Part shown: piece after piece, positions 1,561 through 58,047 of the stretch
Position numbering within the stretch: the first letter of the stretch is position 1
Layout of the letters: the number at the start of each line of letters is the position of its first letter
Assembly: GCA_029948255.1 (NCBI GenBank)
Contig: JALIZF010001320.1
Location: 176,133 to 240,132, forward strand
Length of the DNA stretch: 64,000 bases
Source of the DNA: Telmatactis stephensoni
Taxonomy: Eukaryota > Cnidaria > Anthozoa > Actiniaria > Isophelliidae
Direction: 5' to 3'
The notes under the pieces: generated by a model
What the model saw: the letters and a program-made list of their open reading frames with translations, nothing else
Databases searched by the model: none
What the model was told of the DNA's origin: nothing
Made by a program: the position numbers and the translations under genes

Positions 1561-4500
1561 TTATTCCCAGTCTTTCTTGATATTAAAAGCCCATTCCCAC
1601 TCAAGATGAACTACTTTATCATCATCAAGAAACTTGCTTTTTGCAGTATAATGACCTCGAGAAATCATGCCCTTAGGAGCTTCATCTACTGGGGTTAGGT
1701 ATTGATGCGCTTCTGCTTTTGGTCCATAACTACCAACCATGAAGCTTTCTTTGTCAACTAGAAGTACAAGACAGGATAACTAATCAAAGAAACATTATCC
1801 ATCATTATAAACTAAACACAATTTTAAGTTTAAGTTTTATTTAAAGGGATACTCTGGTGCCTCCAACCACTTTTTGTCAAAAAATACTCTTTAGTCTTAA
1901 TAACACATTTTTCATGAAAATGAGTAAAAATCACGATTTTTTCTCTCTCAAAATGGAGATATTTAGGCGGGAAAACTTTCACTTCCGGTTGGAGAGCGCA
2001 AACCGGAAGTGACGTAGAAGTGAGAACTCGCTTGTAAGATATATATCGAATCATGAAGTGAAGGGTAGTAGCTTGCCTCTTTTTTGAGAAAAACTCACCA
2101 TGCCACATCGTTGTGTTGCGGGAGGCTGCTCCAATACCACCAAGGATGGTGTCAGCCTTCACAACTGGCCTTCAGACCCTAACTACGCAAGAATTTGGAC
2201 GGCAAAAGTGAGAAATACAAGGTCCGACTTTCAACCTTCGAAGTCAAGTAAACTATGTAGTTCTCACTTTAGCGAGGGTTCTTTCATTCCAAGAAGTATG
2301 CTGGCGAATTCTTTGGGACTAAAAGTGAAAAAAACTCTGAAAGAAGACGCAGTTCCCAGCATTTTTTCGTGTACGGCCGACTGGGAACCAACAGAAAAGA
2401 AAAGAAAGAGAGATCTTGACACCGGTCAACCTTCATCTTCACGTTCAGCATATAGAAAACGAGAAGCTGCTAGGGTAAGCAAATGATTGAATGATTGAAG
2501 TAAATAGGTAGAATATGAACAACAAAAAGAGTACCGACAAAAATTGCTTGCTTCTTTAAGATCATTGCTGATTCTGAAGTTAAAAACAGAGAAAGTGCTA
2601 ACACAGAGGATGCCGAGTGTTTTGTACCGCCTTGCAGTTCCCATCTAGTGGAAGCCACGACACAAGCCTCACTGCCGATTGAAAGCAAACATTTTTCCAT
2701 GCAATTTAAAACTAGAAGTACTTCCAAAGGTAAGTATTTCCTGAAATAGGTTGATAAGTCGTAAGTTTTACGAACAAACCAATCAGTCATAAATCAATTC
2801 TAGTTTCTTCTTGAAACTCTCCACTTGCGATATGGCAAAAACGCGCGAAAATGATCAGGTAATATAAAAAAAAAACCTTTAGATATCGCAAAGAAACTAC
2901 TAATTACTTGCTATTTTATAAATGAAGAAACTATGCACTGGTCAATCATTCACTTTGTTTTCGCGTTTTTTTAGGTACCCAAACAATTACTATTTCGCGA
3001 ACACACGATCAAGGAATTCAGTGCGAATTACTCAAGGATTCCAATGTTGAAAGTGAGGACGAAAAAGAGACCGAAGAGAACGTGGACGACGAAATCGATC
3101 GAGATTCAGAGAAAAACGATCCTACGTTTGTACCTGACGAAGATGTTGAGAGCAACGAACAATTTGAGGACATCGATGACTGTTTTTATGAGTAAGTCAA
3201 ATCAATCCATCAATTTATTCATGAAAGAACGAGTGCCGTGAATTAAAACGATATAGCGGACTTTACTTATGTGACTAACTTAAGGACGTTCGCGGGAAAA
3301 TGCCAAATAAATGAAAAATCGCTGCAATTTAGCATGTTGATAAATCATCATGAAACTCATCAAATAAGGCCAAAAAAGTTGGGAGTCACCGTTAAATTTC
3401 GTGAGCTACATCGCTGAGAAGTTGGCCAATTTTGCACTTTGCAGAGCCTTCTTCACGAAGCATAAAGTAAAGAGAACGAAAATTTGTTTTCCGTGAAAAA
3501 ATCACCGGACATAGTAAAAAAGGTACAAGAATGCTTCTCCAACTATCCATTTGTTTTAAAAACGTTATTTAGATGCCGTATCAAAAAAGCAAGTTATTTT
3601 TTTTAGGCAACAACAAGTAGTGGTCTCCAACAAAATTGTCGCATTCTTTCGAATTCGTGGATCAAAATTAGGCAGAAAATGTCGTTTTTCCATACGAAAA
3701 ATAAATGTCGATTTTCTGAAAAACTAACAGGATGTTGATATTTAGTAGCTCTTCAAAATGAGAAAATAAAAAATGGGGGTCACCGTTAATTTTGAAGAGA
3801 TATTCACCGTTAAAAACTGGATCCGTGATAACCGTGACAAGCCAAGTCCATCGCCATCTTGAAAACCGAGTGGAGACTGGGTTTCGTGGGTTCCTTTTTT
3901 GTCTTTTTCTTTCTTTTTTCTGCGCTTCTTCAACCCAAATAATTTTTTTCAGCCTTGAATTTCCATTATTTTAATTTTTCCTACAAACTTGAACAATTTT
4001 TTCTTCAAAAAAAGAAAAAAAAGAAATTATCGAAAAAAATATTGTTTTACGGCCGCCATCTTGGATTTAGTTGAGCGCGCGCTAGCCTGCGCAGTAGAAG
4101 TGCGCGTGAACAATGCCCGCGAACGTCCTTAACCTTTTTGCATTCTACGTGCAGAGAATCACCAACAGATATTCCTGTGGACAAGCAAAATCTTCTCATC
4201 GTAGCAGACAGTTGTCTTCTGAGTTTGTTTTGTTTTTGTCATTTATGCAATTCTGAATGTGAAAGGATTGTATCTAGAACTGGAACTCAAGTAACCGTAC
4301 TACAGCAATGTAAATCTTGCTCGTTTTCAAAAAAATGGGACTCTCAGCCAAAGATTGGCAACATACCACTCGGAAATATCATGATCTCATGTGGAATTTT
4401 GTTTGGTGGTGGCAGCCCATCGAAGGTCCTCAAAATACTGAGACACATGAATATCCTCACTATTGGGTATTCTACATTCATGGAACACCAGAAAAAATTC

Positions 4501-7500
4501 CTACATCGAGCTGTAGAGAAAACGTACCGTCAGCAACAGAAAATCCTTCTAGACAACATCAAGGCCGAAGGAAAGAACTTGATATTGGGAGGGGATGGCC
4601 GCTGTGATAGCCCTGGGCATTCTGCAAAATATGGCTGCTATTCTGTAATGGATGTCGAGCAAAACAAAATACTCGACTCTCAACTAGTGCAGGTATGGTT
4701 TGTGCTCCGACGTTTAGGAGTGCACGTACTTTTAAATGACCTTTAATTATAAAGTACTGAAACTGCGTGTTTTCATTAACTTTAATTCAGAATTAAAAAC
4801 TCGCGCCACCGTCTAAAATTCCCGCGTTTTTTTGGCGCATGTGCAAGTGTGAACAATTTTATGGCGAAAAATGGCTTCTCCCAATCCTGAAGAACTTCTT
4901 GGTTTCATTAGGAACGAAAGACTAAATTCTCTAGAAGATCTTAGACAAATACAACAAGAAGTTCTAAGCTTTTTATCAAGTGTTAATATACAACGAGCTA
5001 GTCAAGAACTGTTTTGGGAATTTTTACTTATTTTAAAAGCATACTTTGAATCTGAGAAAACAACTGCAAAACTTCTAAAAAAACTTGATTTCTTAGAGGA
5101 ACAACTTCAAAACATGCTCTAGATACGTAAGTAACAGTACTTGGACCGAGTTTCACAACAAACAAACAATAGAAAATTGGAATGGATTTAAAATTTTGGC
5201 AAAATATAAACATCCTTGAAACCTTTGGAATTATTAACTTTCTGGGTGTACAAGCTATTGTTATAGGCTGTATGATAATACCTCTGGCATTATTGTCAGT
5301 CTGGATCCATCCCTTAATACTTGTTTTTATTTCCTTTTAGTGTAATGAAGTAAAAAATTCAAATGCCATGGAGAAGGAAGGCTTAAAGAAATGTTTAACA
5401 TTTCTAACAGAAGAGGGTCTATCTATCAAGGCTCTCATATAACTGACAGACATACTCAAATAAGGAAGTACATGAGGGAGAGATGGCCTAGGATTAAGCA
5501 CAGACTTGATGCCTGGCATGTTGGCAAAGGTAAACCTGTCTATTTACTTTGGTTTTCTCGTTAACTCTTGGATGAGCAAGAGTAATATTCACTGAACAAA
5601 TAATATTGTTAACATTATTAATGTCATTTTTGCTGTTGCAGGTACAGGTAAAAAGATTGAAAAGCTTGCTAAGAGAAATGACTGCTCTGTACTTCTGGAA
5701 TGGAAAAAGAGTATTATAAATCACATGTTCTGGTGTGTATCAAGTACTTATGACAATGAAGAAGATCAACGTGAGGCCAAGTGGCTTTCATTAACCAATC
5801 ACTCAAGGGCGGATCCAGGGGGAGGGTCGCGGGGGTCAGGACCCCCCTGTGTTTATCAATGAATATGTCATGAATTTGCGACAGCAGTAACTTTTTTCTG
5901 TGAAAAGACTCACTTTTAACATTCACTGAAATATCACTAAGCAATGCCAACCCTCTACCCATTCAGTTGTAATGTCTGCTAAACTAATATCTATTTCACG
6001 GATTAAGTCACTGCCATCACTCTACTTTTCACAATTTAATATTAAATAGCACTAATTTAATGGAAAACAATAGAATTTGCATAATTTAGCACAATTTAGT
6101 GCTATTTATGTTGCACAATTTTAGTGTTTGTACTCTATCTTCAAGTACAAAGGCCCGAAAGTAATTACCATTTCAAACCATTCATTAGATATCTGTTTTG
6201 TTGCAGTGTTCCAACAAGCACAGAAATGTAGAGTGTACCATGGAGCCAAGTGAAGAATTATACATGTAGGATTTTAGACGTCCAGATGAAGATGACTGCA
6301 GCCTACATTTATTCATCAGCAAACCTAAATCCTTCAAACTCAAAATTGTCCTCAATTCCTGGTGGAGGAAAATGTGCCCGTATGCAGCACACAGCACAAG
6401 ATGGAAGCGGCACTCTGATCTCCTTTCCGAGAAAACCCCAACACCACCTGACAAGCTGCCTGTATGCTATATGCCGGTTCTTTTTGTGTTCTGGCCCATC
6501 ATATGGATTATTGTATTGTTGTTTATATTGATACCATGCAGTTTGAAGAACCCACTGGTTCAAACAAACTGCATGGAATGCTGGATTCTGGGTAATACAT
6601 GTTGGTGGTTCTGCCATTCCTTCAACTTCGACTACCTCATTGTTTTTTTCTACAATACAGTTGATTTCCTGACAACATATGCATTCCTCTAGTCTATCTA
6701 ACCTCTGACAGTTATCACACTGACACCTACATAAAGTGAAAACAAATAAATGAATAATAATGTATTCATGAGAAATATATTTTTACTTTTAAAAAGATAT
6801 TAAGTTCATTGGTTAATAGAATACAAACACTAAAATGGGGCAACACCACAAATAAAACTAAAAAGTGTTATTCTTGGTTAACTCTTTTATATTTTGCTTT
6901 AGTACTAACAGCTACAGCTGTTAGAAAGTAACGTTTTGCACACATTTAGTGTTTGCACTCCAACTGTCAGTAAGTGAAAAAATGCTGGTGTTATTCTTAG
7001 TTATAAATCCAAGTGGAAATTTGAATCGAAATAGAGTTTGACTAGTTTTAGCTTTTCATCTCATCGCTTGCCTCGTTCCTGCAATAAGCTTCAACAAGTA
7101 AAATACCTTCTCTTAGAATTGTAAGTACTCGTGCAAAGATAAAAAAAATGTCTCGTGTGTTCGACCCAAAATCCCCGTTTGTCACTACACTATTCAAAGA
7201 AAAGAAAACAAATTGAGAACAACTAAATAAAGCAATAACTTTAATCTATGCTTTATTCATATGGACTCTACCTTAAGTATTTTAGTTCTAGAATTAGTCG
7301 AAAGAGCAGTCAAGCCATTACATACCAGTTTGTATTTTGCAACCTATCGTTCATGTCTTCATCCTGAGAGGAAGAATTGCTCACGGAATCTGTTCCAGAG
7401 CTTGCCTGGCTATCGTACGGCTCAAACAAATATGGAAGAGTTCCATCGCAGTCTGAAAAAGACTCCGAGCGAGAAGAACTCGAAGAAATACTATCTCTAC

Positions 7501-10500
7501 TATCAGAATCCATGAAGAATCTCAATCAAACAAATGCAAAATGGCCGATTTCCATTCTCATTTCTACGTCACTGATGACGTTGCATTTTCAAACGCAGTT
7601 TACTTCCGGTTATGGAAAACCGCTCAAAAGCCGATACATTTTGCTGATTTTGCGCGATTTCTCTTTCGCGTCGGTATTTATTTCCTCACTTATCTAAACC
7701 TATAAGGTTAAAACAGGATTTTAAGCGAATGTAATCGGAGGCACCAGAGTATCCCTTTAAGGAATAAAAAACGGTTTCCCGTGTTTGATAGCCTGATCAA
7801 AACGCGTGTGATGCTGGTAGACCACAAGAGAGTGTAGTGGAAGCACAAGCCGTAGGTGCCTACGGCTACGCCTATGGCCTATGGCTTATGCTTCCACTAC
7901 GCTCTCTCGTGTTCTCCCAGCATCATGCATGTTTTGATCAGGCTATTAAACACAGGAAACCGTTTTTCATTTCTTTTATAAAAATAACTAACACGCAAAT
8001 AGACGAAAATAGGAAAAAGAAAACACCGGCGAAAGAAACAAATTGACATGAGCGTGTTTGATACTCTCATCAAACACGGGTTTTCAGCCAATCAGAGCGC
8101 GCGTTATATAAGAGTTATTTTATAAAACATGAATGCTGTTTTTGAGACATTATCAGAAAATAATGTTATCTCTGTGTAGATCAAAGTGTGTAGTTTAGCA
8201 CAGAAAACCTTTTCCAAAAGGTAAAAATGTAATAATTGCTTATAGTCATGTTTTGTATATTTAATAATTCCTGGGTTGACGTCATCTCATTTGCATTTTC
8301 TAATTTTGAATGCTTACAGTAATTTCTCTAAAGGGAAATGTGTGTATCAAGAAATATTTAACAAGGTATATTTTCCATTCACAAAGACATGATTTTATGA
8401 AGTTCCTGGCTAACTATTCTAAACTAATTTTTGCCGTGGCTGATTTCAACTCACCTCTAATGCCTTTTCGAAAAGTTACCTGATGATACTTTAGTCCAGA
8501 AACAATCTCTCTGTTAACCTGATGAAAGATGAATAGATCTTATTATAATTTTAATGTTTATCTATTACAATCCACTTGAAAGATGTATTTCTCACTCTTT
8601 GTAAAATTTTTAAAATAATTCAGCAAATGTCAAATCCATAAAATTCAAGGACTGTTTTCTACTTTTTAAGGACTTTTTTTTTGCAAAATTCAAGGACTTT
8701 TCAAGGAAAAATCAAATTCAATGATTTTTTCAAGGCAAATGCTAAAATTCAAGGACTTTTCAAGGTTGTATGAGCCATGTATGCAATAAAAACATCAGTA
8801 AAATCATAATCTTTTTTTTTTCAAACATCATTATATCAATTTCTTCTCACTAGTAGTCAGTGAACCTGTTTTTATTAATCGCCAAAGCAAATATAAGACT
8901 AGCATAAGTTTATTTTTAAAAAGGAGACTCTCTGCTTTTGATAAGCCTAACAGCTTCAAGAGGCTTCCTTACCATCTTTGTTATATAGATATTGTAAAAA
9001 AATCTTTTGTAACTATATATGCATAGCAAATAAATATTAAATAAATAAATCTGCTACAAGTCAATGAATTCAATGAACAATAAACAAAATACAATACTTA
9101 TACAAGAATCCTCACTTTGTTTGCCCTGTTCAATTCTTGCATATAAAATATAAATTCAATTAGCTACTATTTCAATGAGTACATTTTCTAGTATTGGGAA
9201 TTTTCATTAGGAATCGAGAGCTAAAGAGTGCACACCATACACCCATGAAGAAATTACTCAGTCACTATTTAGTGTGTGATGATAGTTATTGACAAACTGA
9301 GAATTCACTGACAGAGGCAGAAACAACACAAAGAAACACAAAGATAGCTAGATATGTTGCTATTGTTGTTTACATTAGCTATTCAGCTCCAGTAATATCC
9401 ACTAGTTTGTACAAAATAGTGCAAGCAGACGATACATGTTAAGTTTTGTTTCACGGATATATGGCATGCACTCTATGGTGAACTTCCGATCTCTTGGAAA
9501 TGTCCTTGCAGAATTTCTTCAATATAAAGTTGAATGTTTTTCCTAAACCAGTTCACAGTTATATCTTGCTCAATGTCAGCCTTGTCTGCACATTAGGCAT
9601 TCTTTGTAGTCTTGGTTAATTAACAGCCAGTGAAAAGATGAGAAATGCACACAAATCATCCAGGGAGGTGATAAATGAACTAAGTAGATACTAATTATTT
9701 AGATTTCCACTGTATTTTCTCAAAATTTTGAATATCTCACATAAAATCGAGTCCAATTAAGCAATAGATAACCTTGAAGTGGTCTATTCAAGGATCATTG
9801 CTTGCATCTTGGTCTCAAATAAGCTCATGCAAATTATTCCACTGTTGGTCTATGAGCTGAGAGAAACAATAAATTTCTTGTCATGGCTTGCTGAAATCCT
9901 TCTGTTTTCTCACTGTGTACCTGTCAAATCTAGCCAATCAGGTTCACTGTTCATGGAATAATGATAAAACAAGGACTAACAATGCTTAGGTAGCAAGCAT
10001 TCCCTTCCCTTCACCTCCCCTCTCCCTCCATCCCAAATCCCTAACTGTATCAAGCTACTATGTAGGTTTTGCAAAATATTTCAATGAGTAAAAAGTTTTG
10101 CACAAATGTTGTGTAAAAGACATTTTTTTCTCGAAAATTATGGAAAGTTTTCACAATTTTTGTGAACACATTCAAAGATAAAAGGTTATGTTGATGGTAA
10201 AGAGAGAACTCAAGATTAATGCTGTGCTCAGACTTGAATAATGACATTCAAAATCAAACCAGTACCACTGAACTTTCAAAAGATACTTTAATAATCTCGG
10301 CAGGGCATATGGAAAATAATTCGTATGAAAGCATTACTAACTGTTTTAAGCAATTCCTGAGCTGATTTCGGAGAAACTCTGACAGTAACTGAAGGCAATG
10401 CTCATTGTAGATTATGTACATTACACTACGAAACCGCTGCTTCTAGAAAGAATGGTTATGGCAGTTTAAAAATAGCTTGCAATTATTTACAATGCTTTGC

Positions 10501-11279
10501 CAAATTTTGGAAGTGTAACAGTATCAACTCTACTTTCACTTTAATTTGGAAATGTTTCGATTTGATCGCCCGTTCCAAAATCAATATCGTGTCCCAAAAC
10601 ATATAGTTCTTGAAAAAGCCCAGACCTACTAGACAATTCGGTCATGGCAGTTACCTTAAATGTGATCTTCAATCTGTATGACGCGCCTTCTTTTAGACTG
10701 AATGGAGATTCTTTTAACTTGTCAAGATCCCCTAGAGTGTTACAAAATAGACAAGAACAATCAAGGGGGTAAATAGATCAAACGAACATTTGTGCATAAC
10801 ACACTTCACGAGTGACTAAAGAACATAGAAAGTTTCAAAACACACAGATACAAACAAAATGAATTCAAGACGATGATATTCAGCATATGAGTTGGTAAGA
10901 GTAATATAAAATGAATAAAATATGCCGCTAAAAACCATGCCTTACCGGTCAAATCGATATCCACGTCAGGTCGGCCTTCAACAACCAAAGTCAATTTCTC
11001 CACCTTTACATTGGGCCCATCGTTGCTCCCTGACAAACAAATTCACAAATAAACAACTATTCTACAAATGCTTTACTAGTAAAATATATTAACCAAACCT
11101 TGCGCAGTGTCAGCACCAGCCAGTAACGTTTGCTTGTATCTCACCAAAGATTCATCATCAGCATCCAACTGTTGTATGGTGGCGAGGGATTTTTGAGCCG
11201 GCGCTACGTAACCAGGAGTTTCTTCTGGTTCATCGTCTTCTATTGGTGAAACGCTTGGAGCTTGCTCTGCCTCTGACAT
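1561..11279 (-). CDS. ARHGDIA: Rho GDP-dissociation inhibitor (RhoGDI)
   Basis: RhoGDI binds GDP-loaded, prenylated Rho/Rac/Cdc42, pulls them off membranes and keeps them soluble in the cytosol. Five coding exons in transcript order: 11099-11279, 10946-11029, 10655-10731, 8455-8518, 1561-1757; sizes 181, 84, 77, 64 and 197 nt give one 200-aa frame, close to the roughly 204 aa of vertebrate RhoGDI1. All junctions are GT-AG. The N-terminal arm is acidic; then come the regulatory segment around residues 40-60 and the immunoglobulin-like, prenyl-binding beta sandwich. Recognisable blocks are [15 protein letters not shown] (exon 3), [11 protein letters not shown] (exon 4), and [21 protein letters not shown] and [14 protein letters not shown] (exon 5). 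Intron 4 is 6.7 kb because a Kolobok transposon (1845-7756) sits in it. Which vertebrate paralogue it matches cannot be decided. Confidence 0.95.
3284..4128. mobile_element. non-autonomous TTAA element nested in the transposase intron
   Basis: The ends GGACGTTCGCGGG and CCCGCGAACGTCC are exact complements, and TTAA flanks both sides (3280-3283, 4129-4132). It lies entirely in the intron between transposase exons 3 and 4, so it does not break the frame. No protein of its own is visible. TTAA duplication is shared by Kolobok and piggyBac; the end GGACG does not match the CCCT end of piggyBac, so a Kolobok-mobilised MITE is the better guess. Confidence 0.7.
4871..5122 (+). CDS. small helical ORF inside the Kolobok transposase intron
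   Basis: An 83-aa frame starts at an ATG in good context (AAAAATGGC) and begins [18 protein letters not shown]. It is rich in L, E, Q and K and looks fully alpha-helical, possibly a short coiled coil. I do not recognise it. It lies in the intron between transposase exons 4 and 5 (4693-5340) on the same strand. It could be a third transposon gene, an alternative exon, or a chance frame. The GC-rich words just upstream (CGCGCC, CCCGCG) differ from the AT-rich surroundings. Confidence 0.35.
   Translation: MASPNPEELLGFIRNERLNSLEDLRQIQQEVLSFLSSVNIQRASQELFWEFLLILKAYFESEKTTAKLLKKLDFLEEQLQNML
5808..5870 (+). mobile_element. truncated end of a GGCGGATCC-type element
   Basis: The transposase reading breaks at about 5808, where GGGCGGATCCAGGGGGAGGG begins. 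The same terminus recurs at 55091 and 55235 as a proper inverted pair. No matching second end is visible here, so this is a fragment. Its insertion or a later deletion removed the C-terminal part of the THAP transposase. Confidence 0.45.
6023..6137. mobile_element. partial family A MITE
   Basis: The right arm TTTTAGTGTTTGTACTCTA is intact, while the left arm lacks its terminus. Directly to the left (about 5975-6024) lies a remnant of a family B right arm ending CATCACTCTA, so one MITE inserted into another. Confidence 0.6.
6309..7525 (-). CDS. P2X7-ballast-domain (zinc-coordinating Cys) protein of the Kolobok element
   Basis: Two exons, 7326-7525 and 6309-6726 (200 + 418 nt = 206 codons), give an uninterrupted 205-aa protein; the junction is GT-AG and restores a Trp codon. 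Residues 1-60 are Ser/Asp/Glu-rich with a YLFEPYDS motif. Then comes the cytoplasmic ballast domain of P2X7 receptors: [28 protein letters not shown], a helix, [25 protein letters not shown] and a final GF pair. In P2X7 this domain binds two zinc ions and a guanine nucleotide; there is no channel part here. It lies convergent to the THAP transposase inside the same terminal repeats, and its intron holds a MITE (6817-6961). The start could be Met 1 or Met 5 (7513). Its role for the transposon is unknown. Confidence 0.85.
6817..6961. mobile_element. family A MITE in the ballast-gene intron
   Basis: Arms TAGAATACAAACACTAAAA and TTTAGTGTTTGCACTCCA are diverged copies of the family A terminus. The insert lies wholly within intron 6727-7325 of the P2X7-ballast gene and so leaves its reading frame intact. 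Confidence 0.6.
7788..8112. mobile_element. inverted-repeat element, family D
   Basis: An inner inverted repeat runs from TTTGATAGCCTGATCAAAAC to its complement near 7935-7955, with 'gagagtgtagtggaagcacaagcc' arms around a small loop. A second block at 8050-8110 has a TTTGAT...ATCAAA hairpin and an AATCAGAGCGCGCG end. The same parts in reverse order are at 35945-36262, so this is a dispersed family. Superfamily unknown. Confidence 0.55.
8640..8775. repeat. iterated 'AAATTCAAGGACTTTTCAAGG' repeat
   Basis: Three or four degenerate copies of a roughly 21-base unit (AATTCAAGGACTTTTCAAGG) lie in RhoGDI intron 3, the intron between exons 3 and 4. Such CAAGGACTTTTCAAGG words are typical of short dispersed repeats in marine invertebrates (general impression, not a database result). 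No coding sequence seen. Confidence 0.5.
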
Positions 11280-12277
11280 AGTTTCAAAGCAACAAAGTCA
11301 AAGTTTTTAGATAGCAAGGAAATAAAGATTGCCTCAAACTGTTTAGCTCCAACAAAATGGAGTACCACCCCATGACGTCACAACACGAGGTTACTCGGCT
11401 GTACGATTAAGGGTGGAGTGAGTGGAGGGGCAATAAATCCTTTGGAGGGGTGACATCAACAGCAGCATCTTCAAAGGTAAGACGAGATATTCAGTACATA
11501 TTTTCCGACGAAAATATGATTTACTAACCAAAACCTTCAGTTCTTTCAAAGAACTTATTGTTCTTATTATTTTTTAAAGTATTATATCTTATTTTAATAT
11601 AAGTATATAAATATAATATAGTTAAGTAGTGTATAGTATAGATTAATAGCGTAGTAGTTTTTATTAGTGATATTATAATGTAATTTCTCCTGAAGGATTT
11701 ACCGTGGATAAATAAAGTTATCTATCTATCTATCTAGAAAGAAAAAAACAAAATGGTGGGGGGGTGGGTGAGGCCAGCCCCCTTTCCCCTGTCAAGATTG
11801 CGCTGCCCCTGCAGTCAGTCATGTAAATCTATGAACCAAAGGTACCTATTAAATACATAGGTATGAAAGAGAACTAAAAATAGTGCAATTTCACAGTTAT
11901 AATATTTGAATGCACTCTAAGAGTCATCAGGTTTTGAAGAGAACTTAGATAAGTATAGTTCAAATTTTTATCAGAAACAAAGCAACTTTTTCTGCCAACA
12001 ATGGACTCGTATAATCTGCTGCATAATTTAACATCCACACCCTGATTCTCCTTTACTAAAACCTTAACCATGTAATGAATGTAGAATCTATCTACCACCA
12101 CTGTAAAACCCTATATTTTCAATTGTCACTCAAACTGTAAGGACTACTGTAATAGTAGTAGTGATGTATTTATGATCACATGAATAATTAAATATTTCCT
12201 TTTTCAGAAATGGTTCTCTCTTCTGTGACTAACTTTTCAGGGTTTTTTTTTTTTGAACCATGAAAGAAAGTTTACTA
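11280..12277. other. intergenic region upstream of RhoGDI
   Basis: Contains the likely RhoGDI promoter just right of 11279. At 11700-11745 there is a 'ggataaataaagt' stretch followed by a short (TATC)n run, which resembles the 3' tail of a non-LTR retroelement or SINE. The frame at 11874-12101 shows no known motif. Confidence 0.4.
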
Positions 12278-34371: not shown

Positions 34372-34865
34372 TTTAACTAGAATAGTGAAAACAAGTCAGA
34401 AACCAGCAATAAATATCTAATGGTAATTTCAGGACTAATATCATCATTAGCATCTTTTTTTGCTATTTAAATCAGAACAAAGACAGTTGCCTCAGCACAA
34501 CTCATGAAATTATTTTATGAAAAGACACCAGAACTTTAATGAATGACCAATAACCATTATATAACCAGCCTTGATTAAATGATCAGTTTGTAATTTACTA
34601 AAAAATTTCTAAGTAGGCAATAACTATAAATGATCCCCATATGTATGTTATTGGTTACTTCCACTTAACTGAGTTCTCTATATTATTCCTAGTTTTAAGG
34701 ATGTTCTATGATTAATGTATAGTAGTCTCCAGCTTTAGGGGGCAACAACTTTAAATACACAGTCATGTGATCATGACCTATTCTTAACAAAAAGGTTAAT
34801 ATGGAAATGTGAAAAAAAGTGGCAGATCAGACAAAAATTGATATCAGGAATAAGAAAAATTATAA

Positions 34866-35023
34866 TAGAGTACAAACACTAAAAGTGTGCAATATAAATA
34901 GTATTGAATACTCTGTGCTAAATCATACAAATTCTTTTGTTTTCTATTACAAGTTTAATTAGACAAGTGCTATTTAGTACTAAATATTGCAAAGTATTGC
35001 ACACTTTTAGTGTTTGTACTCTA
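34866..35023. mobile_element. family A MITE
   Basis: Ends TAGAGTACAAACACTAAAAG and its exact complement. The best preserved arms of the family in this window, together with 708-852. Confidence 0.75.
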
Positions 35024-35194
35024 TCAGGAATATCAGACAAAAATTGATATCAGGAATAAGAAAACACAAAATGTTTCCTATGATCTTTTTTTATGAAAAT
35101 TTGTACTGTATCTCAAAAACAGCTTACTGAACAAATAAAAGCTGGGGGTCACCAAGCTTGTTGCATCTTATTTCTCATCCACTTAAACCCTTAA

Positions 35195-35944: not shown

Positions 35945-36262
35945 AGCTTTGATAAATTATTGGGATAGTACGCGTGCTCTGATTGTCCAATAATCGTGTT
36001 TGATGAGAGCATCAAAAAGTCGCTCACATCACATTTTTTGAATTTTTCGTAAATTTGTGTGCTTGTTATTGTATAAAAGAAGTAAAAAACTGTTTTTCTG
36101 TGTTTGACAGCCTGATCAAAACACTTGTGGTGTTGGGAGAACACTTGAGAGCTGTGAAAACACTTACCTATGGCTCGTGTTTCCACTATGCTCTCATGTG
36201 TTCTCCTAATATCATGTGTGTTTTGATGAGGCTATCAAACACAGAAAACAGTTTTTTTATTT
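35945..36262. mobile_element. inverted-repeat element, family D
   Basis: Same parts as 7788-8112 in the opposite order: GCTCTGATTG and TTTGATGAGAGCATCAAA first, then TTTGACAGCCTGATCAAAAC with its inverted partner ending 'gctatcaaacacag'. Confidence 0.55.
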
Positions 36263-37171
36263 CTTAAATCTAGCAGTGTATTTACCCTTCAGAAAAATTC
36301 AAACTGGTGGAAAATTCTTCACTGCAACATATGCAGTACAAGACACATTTAATAATTTTTTTTGTCTATAGACAAATTGACAAGCAGATTGCTATAGGCT
36401 TCTCTTACAATAGCTGTCTAATGTCTATTAATATTGAATATTTTAAAATGATGCACATAGCTTCATTTTGCCATCTTTTTGACCATGGAGTATTCAATCA
36501 AATATAAAGCAATGCTCTTATCTTTGCCAACAATCTAGGACCTTGGTGAAGAGATTAATTACCATATAAAGTATATTTTATTGATGCCCAATCATAAAGC
36601 AACACTTGTTCCTTTAGCAGCATCTTATTGTTTGACCTACCTGTATTGTAAACGTTTTAAAAACTTATTGAACTTTATCAATAATTAATGGAATGTGACC
36701 TGAAACAAAAAGTTTTATAAAATTGGAATATAACTTGATTTAAAACACATATAACTTCCACAATACTATATTCTGGTAAATGTTAAAGTATACCTTACAT
36801 CAAATATTAGCATAATCAAAAACTGTAACTGAATAGCCTAAAACAGATGGCACTCTAGTACATGTAATATAATCAGCCAAAAATCTACAATTACTATACA
36901 CGTACACATTTATAGCTTTGCCTTTTTTTCTAGGCCCCGGGTGTAGATCATATAATTTTTTTAATACTTTAAGTTAAATTGGATGAGCTACCTCAACTAT
37001 GTTTTATGCGATAACGTTTTTAAAATGTTCCCACAAGGAAAGGTTACCGTATCGATAGCGTGTTCTAGCTAGACGCCGGCGCGAAAGGCGGAACGTGTCG
37101 CGAACCATTACTTAGGGTGAAGTAGTTTTAAGAAAAGTAAAGAAAAATAACAAGTTTGTAAAACTGAGCTT
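36263..37171. other. canopy-like 5' UTR intron region, nothing recognised
   Basis: AT-rich, no coding signal. If the donor read at 37173 is real, this is the left-hand part of a 2.8-kb 5' UTR intron of the canopy-like gene. Confidence 0.35.
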
Positions 37172-57112: not shown

Positions 57113-58047
57113 TCAAACCAAACAGGAAAAAAAATAATATCATAATAAATATAATATAACGGTTATATTATTTGACCTGAACTTGACCTTTACAGTCTGA
57201 TTGTTAACACATTTTGCTAATATTGTACCTTAATATTTTTCAGTAATGAAGGTAAAATTTATATCTGATTTTTGCATGTTGATTCTTTTTTCACCTATCT
57301 CTTGATTAATGTCAAGTCATAAATGTGAATCCCATTCTAATTTCTAGTGTTTCAAAATACCAAATGCAGCTATTCTCGAAAACGTTGTCCATATAAAAAA
57401 TCCAGTTTGTCATTTCCAAATACAGTATCACGTTTCCTATTAAATATATATTCATTGTTTTAGTGCCAATTTATCCAGGTTGCTCCAGATTATTCATAGC
57501 TGTGAAGCTGTGAATTCCACGTGTACAAACCAAATTTTGTAAAATGAATATGTCTTGAAACATGTGATATTTGTAATCGTCAAACTGTCTTTTTATCTGG
57601 ACAAGTTAATGAATATTTTCCACTTCCAAAAGAGACCTGAAAAAATCATCTTTCATTGTACAAATTGTACATTTTTTGTTTAATTTCTACAACTTTAGTT
57701 GTCAGTAGACTACAAACACAAAAAGTTTACAACATAAATAGCACTAAATTGTGCTAAATTATTCCAGCAAAATCCAATTGTTTTCTATGGTTTAATTAGT
57801 GCTATTTAGTACTTAATTGTGAATAGTATTGCACACTTTTAATGTTTGTACTCTATATCGAATTATTTATGATAACCAAAATAAAAATGGGATTAGCAAA
57901 TGCAACCATAATAGTGCACTTGAGATACAATAACAGACGCATCTAGATACTTTTGTTTGCATTGAAATGACAAGGTTGTATTATTTTTCGATCACCCTTA
58001 TCATTTTAGTCTTTGATTTAAGAAAGTCTTTATATTGTCTGTCAAAT
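57113..58047. other. intergenic with one family A MITE
   Basis: AT-rich; a family A MITE occupies 57706-57855. Otherwise nothing recognised. Confidence 0.45.
57706..57855. mobile_element. family A MITE
   Basis: Diverged ends TAGACTACAAACACAAAAAG and CACTTTTAATGTTTGTACTCTA. Confidence 0.65.

Follow-up and report, generated by a model that had tools for sequence, protein, structure and literature searches.

The window (the whole stretch of anthozoan DNA analysed, 64,000 nt) contains what is very probably, at roughly 0.88, a decayed copy of a two-gene Kolobok transposon of the Kol0 type, in which the second gene, KolX, would have an accessory role. The Kol0 assignment rests on the TTAA target sites, the 5'-RR/YY-3' termini, and a KolX protein with the ballast fold of the P2X7 receptor. 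A first-pass annotation had proposed that a relative of the P2X7 ballast is carried here by a THAP/Kolobok element, perhaps as its second protein. Pfam matches to both P2RX7_C and THAP bear out the first point, and the second is probable.

The link between ballast and transposon has been in print since 2022 (Kojima and Bao, 2022; PMC9587614). According to that paper, the second protein encoded by Kol0 Kolobok elements, KolX, has a ballast fold and matches residues 476–595 of human P2X7; the P2X7 ballast derives from it, and Nanor is likely a domesticated KolX. Kol0-bearing animals include cnidarians, and a few piggyBac families encode a protein like the KolX C-terminus with most of its cysteines missing (PMC9587614, where Kapitonov and Jurka, 2007, are cited for Kolobok). 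The suggestion that the gene bears on the origin of the vertebrate P2X7 ballast is thus supported and already published, and the locus is one more instance of a described system, not a discovery. Its KolX, like the published ones, accompanies a DDE transposase as the second protein in an element that inserts at TTAA, and resembles the P2X7 ballast with its cysteines. No essential difference was seen, apart from the loss of the transposase end and the nested inserts in the window copy. The locus illustrates, in a coral-type setting, the published view that the tail of P2X7 derives from a transposon protein, and it provides a fold comparison and a checked KolX gene structure, in which the intron immediately ahead of the cysteine domain is apparently common to relatives. 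A literature search on KolX, as far as the sources were accessible, returned no work on its role; any role it has for the transposon would bear on that of the P2X7 ballast.

Table 1. Features of the Kolobok copy, in order along the window.
Feature	Position	Strand	Basis or remark
Left target site duplication, TTAA	1841..1844
Left terminal inverted repeat, 20 bp	1845..1864	+	starts AG (5'-RR)
Subterminal inverted motif, left copy, 19 nt	2008..2026		TGACGT; 18/19 identical to 7555-7573
Transposase, first exon, THAP domain	2100..2477 (about)	+	Pfam THAP, E 8.9e-14; extent by tblastn
Transposase, probable acidic exon	2975..3191	+	putative limits at AG/GT; start of P0122 likewise acidic; no Pfam match
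Nested insert	3280..4132		17-nt perfect inverted ends (TTAA included), beginning TTAAGGACGTTCGCGGG
Transposase, exon with presumed first catalytic D	4155..4692 (4156-4692 by tblastn)	+	tblastn with P0122, 71%; Pfam Mutator-like transposase, E 1.6e-07
Transposase, exon with presumed second D (TDRH) and DxxH (DAWH)	5341..5529 (5344-5531 by tblastn)	+	frameshift at ~5439; Pfam MULE below cut-off
Transposase, last surviving exon	5641..5802	+	extent by tblastn
KolX exon 2	6309..6726	-	ballast-type cysteine domain; stop 6309-6311
KolX intron (predicted)	6727..7325	-	GT-AG, 599 nt; junction backed by relatives
KolX exon 1	7326..7513	-	acidic/serine-rich N-terminus, PYLFEP motif; relatives
Subterminal inverted motif, right copy	7555..7573		TGACGT
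Right terminal inverted repeat, 20 bp	7737..7756	-	ends CT (YY-3')
Right target site duplication, TTAA	7757..7760

The terminal repeats are identical over all 20 bp, with TTAA outside each, and the AG...CT termini follow the 5'-RR and YY-3' rule given for Kolobok (Kojima and Bao, 2022; PMC9587614), the TTAA duplication being present as well. KolX lies within these exact repeats, on the minus strand and convergent to the plus-strand transposase, as first described. The paired subterminal motifs are 164–202 bp inward of the ends, with AACCGGAAGT close by at both. At either end the motif precedes the start codon of the gene there, so promoter or binding elements may serve both genes; motif and AACCGGAAGT may be promoter or transposase sites common to both.

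Seven relatives, selected from the 120 listed, served as tblastn queries to map the transposase exons. Among the five plus-strand pieces, one matches THAP and one a Mutator-like transposase, one falls below the cut-off for MULE, and two have no Pfam match. The stretches with the presumed first D, the presumed second D, and DAWH, which would correspond to the C/DxxH that lies between the second D and the E in Kolobok transposases, align with relatives. Beyond 5805 none of the seven tested relatives has a significant tblastn match: P0122 continues for another 194 residues, including the presumed catalytic E414, with no significant match to them in the window. An EAFH or ESFHS string surrounds the presumed catalytic E in 47 of the 120 listed transposase relatives. 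The transposase had been called broken, which agrees with the frame change at about 5439 and with the end of all seven sets of matches by 5805. The window copy should be unable to move itself; at best it could still supply KolX protein, and otherwise it is a relic. Within a transposase intron there is also an 83-aa ORF (4871–5119), for which no relatives were found and for which a Pfam PARP14 KH domain falls below the cut-off.

KolX had been described as a two-exon minus-strand gene of 618 nt and 205 aa. The exons and the intron at 6727–7325 stand; the size does not, since the 618 nt took in four codons that precede the first in-frame ATG. Counted from that ATG, at 7513, the coding sequence is 606 nt including the stop, or 201 aa. 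Of three KolX relatives aligned by tblastn, the coral proteins P0001 and P0002 break exactly at the junction, their match stopping with residue 66 at 7325 and resuming with residue 67 at 6725; the alignment of the third, P0007, overruns the junction by 45 nt into the intron. Under the pattern used, a CxC...C...CC motif is found in 55 of the 120 listed KolX-like proteins and is absent in 65. In 16 of the 55 this motif is preceded by W, which is what the spliced window protein has; in 29 it is preceded by R, which an unspliced reading of AG|G would give, and in the remaining 10 by some other residue. That the acceptor is common to KolX relatives is the simplest reading of these counts and no proof. 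Outside the KolX gene, the window has no tblastn match to any of the 120 listed KolX relatives.

The ballast identity of the 201-aa product rests on several comparisons. Pfam P2RX7_C (PF20478) matches at 62.2 bits against a gathering cut-off of 23.5 (E 7.9e-17), which confirms the proposed membership of the P2X7 C-terminal family, and all four protein motifs quoted in the first-pass annotation are present. P2RX7_C is the only Pfam match returned, with no P2X channel domain; unlike the P2X7 receptor, KolX is a separate small protein without a channel, as are the stand-alone ballast proteins zebrafish Nanor and other ZCD proteins (PTHR36981; Rump et al., 2020). In the PDB, single-sequence phmmer matches P2X7 weakly (best E 0.0019), and a KolX family profile finds P2X7 as its sole PDB match. 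By Foldseek, the fold of KolX matches the P2X7 ballast far above the remaining rows, at weak E-values (best 0.0079, none below 0.001).

Compared by eye with the P2X7 consensus, KolX has the WCxCx2C of the first cysteine cluster without the preceding P, and the LPSC x4 IRx2FP of the third with A in place of C/S. Both CC and CIT of the second cluster are present, but spaced far wider than in the P2X7 consensus, the stretch between them being longer than in the P2X7 ballast; the putative zinc ligands thus depart at this cluster from the published P2X7 spacing. The P2X7 ballast binds two zinc ions and GDP. Of the five residues of the rat P2X7 GDP site, alignments read by eye suggest that equivalents of R546, H547, and R578 are kept and those of R574 and K583 are not. 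This neither proves nor excludes nucleotide binding by KolX.

At an E-value threshold of 0.001, 342 KolX-like and 377 transposase-like proteins pass, 120 of each being listed. Among the matches listed, Montipora corals supply the closest named KolX relatives, the top one sharing 74% identity across 92% of the query; other named matches are from Acropora, Porites, Exaiptasia, and Xenia. The two best transposase matches are likewise from Montipora. Eight of the 120 listed KolX clusters bear Montipora names, so KolX is multicopy there. In EukProt, a KolX (gene11048-19899, P0082) and a THAP transposase (gene11047-19898, P0222) are consecutive gene models by number, and the Montipora capricornis KolX P0001 and transposase P0122 are on contigs of equal size (50,184,710). 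Linkage of the two genes in other genomes is at most suggested by these gene names and one shared contig size.

The unbroken KolX frame raised the question of a host role. At least 90% conservation among the 36 other KolX rows is found in 57 columns; exon 2 spans 55 of these and departs from none, the other rows departing from 0 to 7 of the 57. The transposase exons that survive are near consensus as well, departing from 1 of 53 conserved columns, with 0 to 12 departures in 120 others. If the lesion rate is taken from the transposase coding sequence, as one lesion in ~1,480 nt or two in ~2,070 nt (both lengths are estimates), 606 nt would escape damage with a probability of 0.66 or 0.56, respectively. 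A lesion-free KolX is therefore to be expected and gives no evidence for a host role, and the idea that the gene is kept for one is not upheld.

Domestication by the host, with selection keeping this KolX copy while the transposase decays, would account for the intact frame and for its agreement with consensus at all of the conserved columns spanned by exon 2, and it has a published precedent in the proposal for Nanor (PMC9587614). It is nevertheless improbable: the terminal repeats are intact, the transposase exons have stayed near consensus too, the frame is no more intact than chance allows, and MITE-like repeats have come to lie in the KolX intron and at the end of the element. Slightly less probable again is an accidental placement, in which a Kolobok captured or landed around an ordinary nanor-like host gene. 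Ballast (ZCD) domains have been found from sponges to fish (Rump et al., 2020; PMC7016195), and the main text of that account of ballast proteins across animals has no word starting with "transpos". Against this, Kol0 elements are reported to carry KolX as their second gene (PMC9587614), in EukProt a KolX gene model is numbered consecutively with that of a THAP transposase, and the gene is multicopy in Montipora. That the ballast likeness arises by chance or from a misread frame might be argued from the weak phmmer result, but is ruled out by the Pfam match, the close Montipora relative, the family profile search of the PDB, and the fold match.

In an intact two-gene Kol0 element, the transposase would use its THAP domain to bind the terminal repeats and would cut and paste at TTAA, with KolX acting in trans as an accessory factor in assembly or regulation. 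The KolX protein would probably be folded around zinc and contact either the transposase or the DNA ends. By analogy, KolX might supply in trans a guanine-nucleotide step that is built into the P element transposase. The latter, also THAP-headed, requires GTP to pair and position the ends (PMC7776569), and a GDP/GTP site without known function is present in the P2X7 ballast (PMC9859053). This is a long shot; if true, KolX would sense GTP/GDP as a subunit of the transposition machinery, and the P2X7 nucleotide site would be a relic of this.

Several other repeats are present in and around the element. The insert at 3280–4132 is probably a TTAA-targeting nonautonomous element, and looks to be sitting in a transposase intron. 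Two MITEs had been noted close to or inside the KolX intron, and two MITE-like inverted repeats were found: one with arms 75% complementary (6819–6960) is within the intron, and a long palindromic one with 98-nt arms (86%; 7759–7975) abuts the right TTAA. Sequence related to the latter recurs at about 36044–36268. A further MITE family has copies at 708–856, 6023–6139, 34862–35026, and 57706–57856 that are 82–89% alike; the first has 27-nt inverted ends, and the family's ends resemble one end of the 6819–6960 repeat. A probable Rho GDP-dissociation inhibitor has minus-strand exons at 10541–11297, and of its three pieces one exceeds the Pfam cut-off; this is likely a host gene beside the transposon.
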